64,000 nucleotides of DNA. Source: Streptomyces sp. NBC_00285 (GTDB lineage Bacteria > Actinomycetota > Actinomycetes > Streptomycetales > Streptomycetaceae). Position numbers and translations under genes: made by a program. Position 1 is the first letter of the stretch; each line of letters opens with the position of its first letter. The stretch is taken from contig NZ_CP108055.1 of assembly GCF_036174265.1 (NCBI RefSeq), positions 248,001-312,000 of the forward strand, in the 5' to 3' direction. A model generated the notes under the pieces. That model was not told the origin of the DNA, ran no database searches, and saw only the letters and a list, made by a program, of their open reading frames with translations. Positions 18,990-21,899 of the stretch are shown here, piece by piece.

Positions 18990-19814
18990 ATGTTCGATAC
19001 CGAAGACGTGGGCGTGTTCCTCGGCCTAGACGTCGGCAAGAGTGCTCACCACGGGCACGGGCTCACCCCGGCCGGGAAGAAAGTCTTCGACAAGCAGCTG
19101 CCCAACAGCGAGCCGAAACTGCGGGCCGTGTTCGACAAACTGGCCGCGAAGTTCGGCACCGTCCTGGTGATCGTGGACCAGCCCGCCTCCATCGGAGCCC
19201 TCCCGCTCACGGTCGCCCGGGACACCGGCTGCAAGGTCGCCTACCTGCCCGGACTCGCGATGCGGCGGATCGCCGACCTCTATCCGGGCGAGGCCAAGAC
19301 CGATGCGAAGGACGCTGCGGTCATCGCGGACGCGGCCCGCACCATGCCGCACACCCTGCGCTCGCTGGAACTCACCGACGAGATCACCGCCGAACTCACG
19401 GTCCTCGTCGGCTTCGACCAGGACCTGGCGGCCGAGGCCACCCGCACTTCCAACCGGATACGCGGCCTGCTCACCCAGTTCCACCCGTCGCTGGAGCGCG
19501 TTCTGGGCCCCCGTCTCGACCACCAGGCCGTCACCTGGCTGCTGGAGCGCTACGGCTCCCCCGCCACACTGCGCAAAGCCGGCCGCCGCAGGCTCGTCGA
19601 GCTCATCCGGCCCAAGGCCCCGCGCATGGCCCAGCGGTTGATCGGCGATGTCTTCGAGGCACTGGACGAGCAGACCGTCGTGGTCCCGGGGACCGGCACC
19701 CTCGACATCGTCGTGCCCTCCCTGGCCCGCTCGCTCACCGCTGTCCACGAACAGCGCCGGGCCCTGGAGACACAGATCAACGCCCTGCTGGAGGCCCACC
19801 CTAATGGGCAGTGA
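18990..19814 (+). pseudogene. Outer IS110-family transposase, N-terminal part
   Basis: 271 native residues up to 19802, then a few foreign codons to a TGA at 19812-19814. The RuvC-like DEDD domain is visible: VGVFLGLDVGKSAHHGHGL (first Asp) and GEAKTDAKDAAVIADAAR (last two acidic residues). The coding sequence stops at LLEAHP where the second IS110 element is inserted; the remaining 3' part is at 21501-21899. Joining 19802 to 21501 restores an uninterrupted frame. Confidence 0.9.
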
Positions 19815-20181
19815 TGCGGGGCACCGCCAGGCCCACCCCGGCCCGTCGAGGCCCTGAAAGAGACTGCGGGCCTCGCATCACTCTCCTCGTGGCGGTGGTC
19901 GGTTCCGGAGAAGCCGCACACACCCCCTGGGACATGGATCCCTTGGTCAAGAGTCGGCCTCCGGGCCCGTCCAGCGCCACGAGGCCGAGCGTCCACCACA
20001 TCCAGTCCGATGATCGGATCGTTGATGTTTGTGGTCTGAGCCGTCCACAGGGATCACCTCTCACCACGCCTGGAGCCGTCGAGTTCTGGAGCAGACCGAG
20101 GGCCCTGAGGACCGCTGGGGTCACGAACGGCTAATCGGATGCAGGGCCATCGAGCCCTTCCATTAGGGAGACGCGTGCCCC
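19811..20181 (+). ncRNA. Bridge RNA of the inner IS110 element
   Basis: Target loop: a 12-bp stem (19811-19822 with 19870-19881, one G-T), extended by CCGC/GCGG, encloses AGGCCCACCC (19829-19838), identical to target bases 19792-19801, and GAAAGAG (19856-19862), the reverse complement of right target CT-CTTTC. A GGCC hairpin lies between them. Donor loop: GGGG-T-CACG (20117-20125) pairs with CGTGCCCC (20174-20181). It encloses ATCGGATG (20134-20141), identical to the right end at 21490-21497, and CCATTAG (20160-20166), the reverse complement of CT-AATGG at the left end. An AGGGC/GCCCT hairpin lies between. This is the known IS110 bridge RNA layout; 5' and 3' ends are inferred. Confidence 0.85.
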
Positions 20182-20235
20182 CGCACGGCTGCGACCAGCA
20201 GCCAAGCTCCCGAGTGAGAGGACGAACACGACGCC

Positions 20236-21477
20236 ATGACCATCACCTGCGGAGTCGACTGGGCCAGCGACCATCACGACGTCGCTCTGGTCGACCAGGA
20301 AGGCACCTTGTTAGCCAGGGCTCGGATCGCCGACGACCTGGACGGCCTGCACCAGCTACTCGAGCTCCTCACCACCCACGGCGACGCCGTGAACGCCCCG
20401 GTCCCTATCGCGATCGAGACCTCCCGCGGACTTCTCGTCGCATGCCTCCGCGCAACCGGCCGGCCTATTTACGCCATCAACCCGATGGCCGCCGCCCGTT
20501 ACCGTGACCGCCACACGGTCACCCGCAAGAAGTCCGACCACCTCGACGCCATGGTGCTCGCGAACATCCTGCGCACGGACAGGGCCGCACACCGGCCGCT
20601 GCCTGACGACAGCGAGCTCGCCCGAGCGGTCGCCGTCCTCGCCCGCGCCCAGCAGGATGCCGTATGGGACCGAACCCAAGCCGGCAATAAACTCCGCTCT
20701 CACCTGCGCGAATACTTCCCCGGTTTCCTCGCTGCCTTTCAGCACAAGCGCGAAGGGATCAGCGGCAGCGTCGCCCGCGCCGTGTTGGCAGCGGCCCCCA
20801 CCCCCGAACAGGCCGCCAAGCTCACCCGCCCCCAGCTGCGCACGCTGCTGAAGAAGAGCGGCCGTGAGCGCGGCATCGAAACGGAAGCCGAACGGCTCCG
20901 CGCCGCTTTGCGCGTCCCACAAATGCGCCAGCCCAATCAGGTCGAGCAGGCCATGGGATGCCAGACCGTCGCTCTGCTCAGACAGCTCAACGCCGCCTGC
21001 ACCAGCGTCGAAGACCTCACCGAAGCCACAGCGGAGTCATTTGATACGCACCCGGACGCCGAGATCATCACCAGCTTTCCGGGACTCGGCTCTGTCACCG
21101 GCGCCCGGGTGCTCGCCGAGATCGGCGACGACCGATCCCGCTTCACCGACGCGAAAGGCCTCAAAGCCTTCGCCGGGGCCGCACCGATCACCAGGGCATC
21201 TGGCAGAAGCCTCGCCGTCATGGCCCGCAGGGTCAAGAACCAGCGCCTGGCCTCGGTCGGCTACGTCTGGGCCTTCGCCAGCCTGACCGCCTCACCCGGC
21301 GCCCGAGCCCACTACGACCGGCGACGAGCCGACGGAGACCGCCACACAGCCGCCCAGCGGAACCTCTTCAACCGCATGCTCGGCTGCCTCCACTACTGCC
21401 TCACCAAGCGCAGCCCATACGACGAACAAGCCGCATTCCCGACCCTACCGGCCCCACAACTCACCATCGCCGCTTGA
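20236..21477 (+). CDS. IS110-family transposase (bridge-RNA-guided recombinase)
   Basis: 413 residues, full length. The N-terminal RuvC-like DEDD domain shows TCGVDWASDHHDVALVDQEG (Asp), PIAIETSRGLL (Glu) and RKKSDHLDAMVLANI (two Asp). After a coiled-coil linker the C-terminal domain has TSFPGLGSVTGARVLAEIGD and ITRASGRSLAV with the likely catalytic Ser, then the conserved tail GARAHYDRRRADGDRH and NRMLGCLHYCL. It catalyses insertion and excision as a circle through the CT core, guided by the element's RNA. Start is ATG 20236. The gene appears intact. Confidence 0.93.
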   Translation: MTITCGVDWASDHHDVALVDQEGTLLARARIADDLDGLHQLLELLTTHGDAVNAPVPIAIETSRGLLVACLRATGRPIYAINPMAAARYRDRHTVTRKKSDHLDAMVLANILRTDRAAHRPLPDDSELARAVAVLARAQQDAVWDRTQAGNKLRSHLREYFPGFLAAFQHKREGISGSVARAVLAAAPTPEQAAKLTRPQLRTLLKKSGRERGIETEAERLRAALRVPQMRQPNQVEQAMGCQTVALLRQLNAACTSVEDLTEATAESFDTHPDAEIITSFPGLGSVTGARVLAEIGDDRSRFTDAKGLKAFAGAAPITRASGRSLAVMARRVKNQRLASVGYVWAFASLTASPGARAHYDRRRADGDRHTAAQRNLFNRMLGCLHYCLTKRSPYDEQAAFPTLPAPQLTIAA

Positions 21478-21479
21478 CA
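21474..21479 (+). promoter_or_regulatory. -35 half of the circle-junction promoter
   Basis: TTGACA overlaps the transposase stop codon. If right and left ends are joined through the CT core, it is followed after 18 bases by TCTAAT (TCT from 21498-21500, AAT from 19803-19805), five of six to the -10 consensus. The predicted start would fall at about 19811-19813, the first bases of the bridge RNA stem. In the integrated form the -10 is lost on this side. Confidence 0.75.
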
Positions 21480-21500
21480 GATCAACTGCATCGGATGTCT

Positions 21501-21899
21501 CTTTCCCCGGTCCTGACGTCGATGCCCGGCGTCGGCGTCAGGACCGCCGCCGTCCTGCTGGTCACCGTCGGCGACGGCACCAGCTTCCCCAACGCCGCCC
21601 ACCTGGCCTCCTACGCCGGACTCGCCCCGGCAACCAAGTCGTCCGGGACCTCGATCCACGGCGAACACGCGCCCCGAGGCGGCAACCGGCAGCTCAAACG
21701 CGCCATGTTCCTCTCCGCCTTCGCCTGCATGAACGCCGATCCCGCCTCCCGCGCCTACTACGACAGACAACGCGCCCGCGGCAAAACCCACACCCAAGCC
21801 CTCCTCCGCCTCGCCCGCCAACGCATCAGCGTCCTGTTCGCCATGCTCCGAGACAGCACCTTCTACGAACCCCGCACCCCCGAAACCGCCCCTGCCTGA
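21501..21899 (+). pseudogene. Outer IS110-family transposase, C-terminal part
   Basis: Continues the frame of 18990-19802: LSPVLTSMPGVGVRTAAVLL, SYAGLAPATKSSGTSIHG with the probable catalytic Ser region, then GGNRQLKRAMFLSAFACMNA and YYDRQRARGKTHTQALLRLA. It encodes the C-terminal catalytic domain separated from its RuvC domain by the inner element. A TTGACG at 21911-21916 after the stop could be the -35 of this element's own junction promoter. Confidence 0.9.

Follow-up and report, generated by a model that had tools for sequence, protein, structure and literature searches.

How many target sites can one IS110-family element address with the RNA that its left non-coding end would encode? This question is raised by an element in a 64,000-nucleotide stretch of the 10.3 Mb genome of Streptomyces sp. 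NBC_00285 (NZ_CP108055.1, positions 248,001 to 312,000; the window hereafter), in which an earlier note, made from the letters of the DNA, had read a plain bridge RNA whose single target loop and single donor loop stand far apart. This plain reading did not hold, as the spacer carries a second target-binding loop (37 bits with a covariance model of such loops), and the left non-coding end very probably encodes a multiplexed bridge RNA, the target loops of which would be used as alternatives. The features needed for the argument are given below, with scores of the covariance model, R1, where they apply.

18990..19802, + strand: host gene, left of the insertion: an IS110-family transposase from a different subgroup (DEDD_Tnp_IS110; PF01548, 2.1e-50)
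19792..19802, + strand: left target and CT core (AGGCCCACC CT), placed by guide match
19803..21500, + strand: IS110-family element (1698 bp with one CT core), ends set by the donor guides; a second copy is 100% identical
19815..19876, + strand: target-binding loop 1 (TBL1), left guide 19829-19838, right guide 19856-19862; R1 40.0 bits
19904..19965, + strand: target-binding loop 2 (TBL2), left guide ACACACCCCC 19918-19927, right guide GGTCAAG 19945-19951; R1 37.1 bits
20048..20108, + strand: conserved loop-like hairpin ("loop 3"), just 5' of the donor loop; R1 22.9 bits
20119..20179, + strand: donor-binding loop (DBL), left guide 20134-20141, right guide 20160-20166; R1 18.4 bits
20236..21477, + strand: transposase/recombinase (DEDD), 413 aa (PF01548, 1.3e-37; PF02371, 8e-14)
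21474..21479, + strand: TTGACA overlapping the transposase stop codon, giving TTGACA-N18-TCTAAT with 21498-21500 and 19803-19805 on circularisation
21490..21500, + strand: right end of the element, left donor ATCGGATGT and CT core, placed by guide match
21501..21899, + strand: host gene, right of the insertion (Transposase_20; PF02371, 1.7e-24), the reading frame running on across the empty site

The four guide matches on which the plain reading was founded were all found. The left guide of TBL1, AGGCCCACCC (19829-19838), equals the left target (19792-19801), and its right guide GAAAGAG (19856-19862) is the reverse complement of 21499-21505, so that TBL1 corresponds to the insertion site on either side of the CT core. 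Likewise, the donor left guide ATCGGATG (20134-20141) equals the right end of the element (21490-21497) and the donor right guide CCATTAG (20160-20166) is the reverse complement of 19801-19807, the donor-binding loop thus matching the element's own two ends. When the non-coding end was scanned for left and right guides together, the true site scored 16/16 (loci L001 and L002), a score attained by none of 150 decoy CT sites taken from the flanks (maximum 14). The protein combines the DEDD RuvC-like and Transposase_20 domains, as in the IS110 group, and matches the IS621 structure 8wt6 (E 1.1e-10), with alignment of the segments around the catalytic residues of IS621 (residue numbers from PMC11208158); the longer non-coding end lies on the left, 5' of the gene, with 433 nt against 23 nt on the right, again as in this group. 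The bridge RNA logic and the guide geometry of the earlier note were thus borne out, by these matches and by the tests in relatives described below. The proposed fold fared less evenly: the region as a whole folded better than 100/100 shuffles (z -4.0) and TBL1 alone gave z -2.66, but the donor-loop stretch was unremarkable (z -0.46 and -1.94 for two cuts).

Model R1 was built from 45 loops chosen for their target match, among them a loop of L001, the identical copy, and all 13 of its predicted stem pairs show two-sided changes with the pair kept. It recovered both loops of the earlier note (40.0 and 18.4 bits), but the supposed gap between them holds the second target-type loop (19904-19965) and a hairpin (20048-20108), so that the element does not have the IS621 form of one target loop plus one donor loop. 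The best R1 match elsewhere in the window reaches 21.9 bits (E 0.14), and "loop 3" and the donor loop are therefore indistinct by this model alone. Strong "loop 3" matches in relatives end 119-135 nt 5' of the gene, and their guide-side letters vary without matching insertion sites; "loop 3" was considered as a further target loop and rejected, "loop 3" and donor loops reaching 12/16 on their own site in just 3 of 149 cases. An Rfam search returned no bridge-RNA family at gathering scores.

TBL2 is predicted to aim at ACACACCCC-CT-TGACC. Its guide region is identical at 19/19 letters to that of a relative, L141, whose insertion site is CTTCACCCC-CT-TGACC. Similarly, the site of L142 is CGAGTACGC-CT-TGTCC, and roughly 100 nt 3' of its first loop a hairpin reads AGAGTACGCC...GGACAAG. 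Such relatives are a case that the earlier note would have taken as fatal to its guides, namely the same loops at unrelated targets: L037, L082, L141 and L142 share the first loop of the window element and stand at other sites. Yet each of these sites matches another loop of the same RNA, at 14-16/16. An ordinary two-loop bridge RNA, with one target loop, one donor loop and a long inert spacer, fails on L082, L141 and L142, which have the same first loop at different sites. TBL1 and DBL would suffice for the window copy and its identical second copy; nonetheless, since the spacer hairpin itself fits the loop model and copies with identical loops stand at sites matching loop 2, 3 or 4 (14-16/16, against 7-11 in crossed comparison), we regard the ordinary form as improbable.

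The strongest evidence for alternative use, as read from these sequences, is indeed the presence in one genome of copies of one element at sites matched by different loops. Five genomes hold copies that are identical or one base apart. L111 and L141 (0 differences in 1696 bp) match their sites with loop 1 (16/16) and loop 2 (14/16), respectively; L113 and L142 (1 difference in 1708) with loop 1 and loop 2, at 16/16 each; L160 and L161 (0 differences in 1727) with loop 2 and loop 1, at 15/16 each; L182 and L183 (0 differences in 1842) with loop 3 (15/16) and loop 1 (14/16); and L034 and L035 (1 difference in 1846) with loop 1 (15/16) and loop 4 (16/16). When the comparison was crossed in these five pairs, each loop scored 7-11 on the site of the other copy. 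Three further identical pairs use the same loop (L001/L002, L115/L143 and L152/L153). Rearrangement is suggested for the pairs L089/L090 and L173/L203, the members of which agree in the non-coding end and right flank but not in length or left flank. Among the full-length matches listed, at least two copies occur in the L034 record and at least two in genome G284, together with more distant relatives; the genome searches scored limited candidates (40 of 727 for the L034 record), and copy numbers are lower bounds.

These pairs also bear on two other explanations. For the insertions that do not match loop 1, the guides might have come in trans, from bridge RNAs of other relatives resident in that genome, and the second hairpin would then have a structural role only. 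Several genomes do contain further relatives (e.g., G244 and G091), the L034/L035 record holds partial matches of 65-68%, and IS621 recombination has been obtained in vitro with separate target-loop and donor-loop molecules (PMC11208158); since the sites nevertheless match a further loop of the inserted element itself (16 of 16 for L142 and L035, 15 for L160 and L182, 14 for L141), we judge guidance in trans, on the evidence of the element's own loops, to be very unlikely. Alternatively, guides could have been copied from the site after insertion, which would make guide and flank agree without any guiding, and they are indeed sequence-identical. Such acquisition seems extremely improbable to us, as every loop is present in identical elements at different sites, those that do not fit an element's own flank matching the site of the other copy, and as copies with a given loop have repeatedly been found at one target, within host genes that are 66-100% alike.

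The multiplexed reading was then confronted with a larger set of relatives. Close relatives of the element occur in Streptomyces and allied genera, with a match at E 1e-100 or better in 94 of 392 genomes of the genus; 133 encoding loci were found and 80 kept, to which plasmids were added. Of 235 loci, 223 had a transposase match and 148 had donor-defined ends (75 did not); 128 passed a filter on AAT, score and length, 113 of these were unique insertions and 109 had at least one target-loop match. Element ends were set from the position of the transposase, the donor loop and the copies of its guides at the ends, without use of the target, which makes the target-match test independent of the choice of ends. 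This step requires a donor-guide match and hence offers no independent test of the donor loop; such a test is provided by the search for diverged donor guides, which recur before TCT 3' of the gene in six of the seven relatives searched (about 1.9 kb away in L067, not found in L068). Right-end tails located about 0.7-1.9 kb beyond the transposase gene were seen in L013 (4924-4952), L009 (5418-5446) and L067 (6142), perhaps reflecting cargo or a nested insertion.

A first scan of whole non-coding ends gave, in 80 of 128 loci, a true score reached by at most 1% of decoys. With guides read near the fixed places of the model, 103 of the 109 insertions matched one of their own target loops at 12/16 or better, compared with 420 of 11,468 non-self pairings of loop and site (3.7%), pairings with similar targets being left out. 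Outside the training set, 58 of 64 insertions reached this threshold, many of them sharing loops with trained ones. After collapse into 60 target clusters, performed blind to the match, the own mean was 13.95 against 8.83 when permuted (maximum of 1000 permutations, 9.34), and 56 of the 60 clusters reached 12, as against 3.3%. Matches were distributed over the loops: among 61 matched insertions of multi-loop elements, loop 1 was used in 33, loop 2 in 24, a third loop in 3 and a fourth in 1.

R1 was also searched over the window and 104 loci, and 104 of these 105 sources gave matches. At 25 bits or more, 170 matches lay inside non-coding ends; the 2 outside came from L136, close to which there is a second relative. 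Among the 104 distinct non-coding ends, target loops of this strength numbered 0 in 18, 1 in 37, 2 in 40, 3 in 8 and 4 in 1, so that 49 ends carry two to four; L034, from Trebonia kvetii, has four.

Several of our results weigh against this reading. Just one strong target loop was present in 37 of the 104 ends, which is what the ordinary two-loop form would give, and the 18 others had none at 25 bits. No target-loop match at all was found for 4 of the 113 insertions, and 6 of the 109 (L019, L032, L132, L173, L175 and L210) remained below 12/16; moreover, some site matches are one-sided and partial, such as L089 (6+7). Labelling loops by their distance from the donor loop misplaced one strong match (L210), and loops were relabelled by distance to the gene, which left the count at 103 of 109. 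A fifth "loop" of L034/L035 was a spurious low-scoring match. In the genome of the window itself, both full copies and a left-end remnant are all at TBL1 sites, and support for the window's TBL2 comes from L141 (2 mismatches in 16, a score equalled by 1 of 110 decoys) and the related L090 (15/16).

The window's TBL1 recurs unchanged in relatives whose transposases are 80-91% identical, and almost unchanged in L037, whose transposase is 66% identical and whose donor guide differs, while TBL2 is common to L087, L088 and L111, and is found neither in L082 nor in L113. These different distributions point to independent exchange, and loops thus appear to pass between elements as modules. Taken more generally, it is likely that some IS110 elements encode natural arrays of two to four interchangeable target loops and one donor loop, so that one recombinase would have several addresses set in advance to choose from, a fair proportion being conserved codons of rival transposases, with loops apparently swapped as modules; this would be the form expected between single bridge RNAs and the stem-loop arrays of TIGR systems.

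What TBL1 aims at could be examined in more detail. The gene interrupted by the window copy and the element's own transposase are both of the IS110 family and remote from each other (26% identity over 147 aa), in agreement with the earlier proposal of a target inside another IS110 transposase gene, which is corroborated by the PF01548 and PF02371 halves of the host gene and by the sites in relatives. The full site is AGGCCCACC-CT-CTTTC. The second copy (L001; G000:C1:1383181-1384878, 1698/1698 bp, same genome) is inserted at the same 16-base site within different flanking DNA; its right flank encodes 57 aa of the host gene (93%), and its left flank beyond the site has no host-gene match. Among the nine insertions at the TBL1 site, pieces of the host gene (66-100% identity) were found on both sides in eight, L001 having them on the right side only. 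In uninterrupted form, the 16-mer AGGCCCACCCTCTTTC is present in 62 of 295 genomes of the genus, versus 0 of 295 for the reversed control. At the empty sites examined, halves of the host transposase were found by tblastn on both sides in 29 of 30, and LEAHPLS is encoded across the site in 30 of 30. Judged from its guides and these sites, TBL1 is aimed at a conserved codon stretch (LEAHP|LS) of the transposase gene of another IS110 subgroup. No perfect empty TBL1 site was present in the loop-carrying genomes G000, G058, G142, G187 and G244, which is unremarkable as 233 of the 295 genomes likewise have none. Within the element's own genome, no empty TBL1 site was found at 0 or 1 mismatch, with 4 against 7 controls at 2 mismatches, and empty TBL2 sites at up to 2 mismatches numbered 44 against 38 for reversed-pattern controls, an uninformative margin. 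In the same genome, L232 (G000:C1:1363500-1370500, left end at about 1366274) is an internally deleted and interrupted left-end remnant, again 3' of AGGCCCACCCT.

Other loops have other targets. A tally of target genes by longest open frame was unusable at high GC, and Pfam was therefore applied to single-flank pieces picked by coding score (the second-best piece for L142). A transposase domain of the IS110, DDE_Tnp or Mutator type was found in 14 of 40 such pieces, drawn from 40 of the 67 listed sites, a rough fraction as frames were guessed; the remaining pieces lay near metabolic, regulatory or unknown genes, or matched no family. That targets are mostly transposases is not claimed, given that coverage and frames that may be wrong. 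The 14 pieces include two sites of one element, that matched by loop 1 (L034; DDE_Tnp_4) and that matched by loop 4 (L035; Mutator). That conserved codons of transposases are aimed at suggests elements living on other elements. L158 and L205 are both inserted beside a DUF5998 gene, a neighbourhood that is possibly a recurrent chromosomal landing site.

From a mechanistic point of view, the array would comprise two tandem target-binding loops, the conserved third hairpin and one donor-binding loop, with one to about four target loops in relatives. Excision would join the ends, the junction would form a promoter and the array would be transcribed from it. In line with this, 101 of the 113 insertions have a -35 motif at the junction (at least 5 of 6 letters, spacing 17-18), compared with a frequency of 0.2% at control positions; TCTAAT was found in 104 of 113, its last letters being partly fixed by the choice of ends. 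A promoter arising where right and left ends meet in the circle is a trait of the IS110 group that is predicted here and has been reported for IS621 (Durrant et al., 2024; PMC11208160). The recombinase would then load the donor loop with one target loop, and the element would insert at CT cores that fit the loaded target loop; that the array is transcribed, that its RNA is processed and loaded, and that catalysis follows are all proposed here on the strength of sequence comparison. The two loops of one IS621 complex have been inferred to come from different RNA molecules, and separated loops function in vitro (PMC11208158), which makes an array mechanically plausible. The array may also be a precursor, cut into seekRNA-like units that would act as separate RNAs, each for one target or for the donor. 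We hold this to be a real, if tentative, possibility: the 74-nt seekRNA of ISEc21, an IS110 member, contains the two target matches, and a form of 58 nt is enough (PMC11187229), and TIGR stem-loop arrays are processed to single units (PMC12045711). It would be a sub-version of the multiplexed bridge RNA and not its opposite.

The multiplexed arrangement may be placed among known systems. The IS621 bridge RNA has one target loop and one donor loop in 177 nt (Durrant et al., 2024, PMC11208160; Hiraizumi et al., 2024, PMC11208158). IS621 shares with the window element a DEDD recombinase, a left-end RNA, a CT core, a junction promoter (predicted in the window) and internal-loop hairpins whose 5' and 3' sides match the left and right halves, respectively, of target or donor; by contrast, the window element has, within its 433-nt non-coding end, two target loops, a third hairpin and a donor loop. 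The seekRNA of ISEc21 aims at codons around the second D of the DDE in IS3 transposases (Siddiquee et al., 2024, PMC11187229), a precedent for the targeting of transposase codons. ISEc21 resembles the window element in its upstream non-coding region, in an RNA matching both target strands and in a conserved transposase codon stretch as target, but one target is described for its 74-nt RNA, unlike the IS110-family transposase target and the second loop aimed elsewhere of the window element. IS4321/IS5075 also target another mobile element, although they belong to the IS1111 group and target the terminal repeats of the Tn21 family and not a transposase gene (PMC11187229).

Tas, IS110 and box C/D snoRNPs are linked in the TIGR-Tas paper, where IS110 bridge RNAs are called a single two-stem unit, in contrast with TIGR arrays (PMC12045711). 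TIGR systems consist of tandem units in which a pair of short guides addresses the two opposite strands, and their stem-loop arrays resemble our tandem hairpins; they differ by their Nop-domain Tas effectors, some of which carry a nuclease (HNH or RuvC), and the text consulted describes no donor loop (PMC12045711). The transposase of the window element is a DEDD recombinase by Pfam, not a Tas effector, and no search was made for a nearby Tas gene. No published bridge RNA with several target loops was found among open-licence PMC papers, and the best reading is that the novelty would consist of tandem alternative target loops in one bridge RNA, as a variant of the IS110 system. If this is true, RNA-guided recombinases can be naturally multiplexed, and tandem target loops offer a design to copy for multi-site insertion. 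Such arrays would also account for the ability of IS110 elements to retain more than one landing site and to change target, and would open to testing the evolutionary connection that has been proposed between guide-RNA arrays and the bridge RNAs of IS110.

Finally, a match to Rfam Ms_AS-4, an actinobacterial antisense sRNA, was observed within the transposase gene of the window element (21075-21156, minus strand, 57.6 bits).

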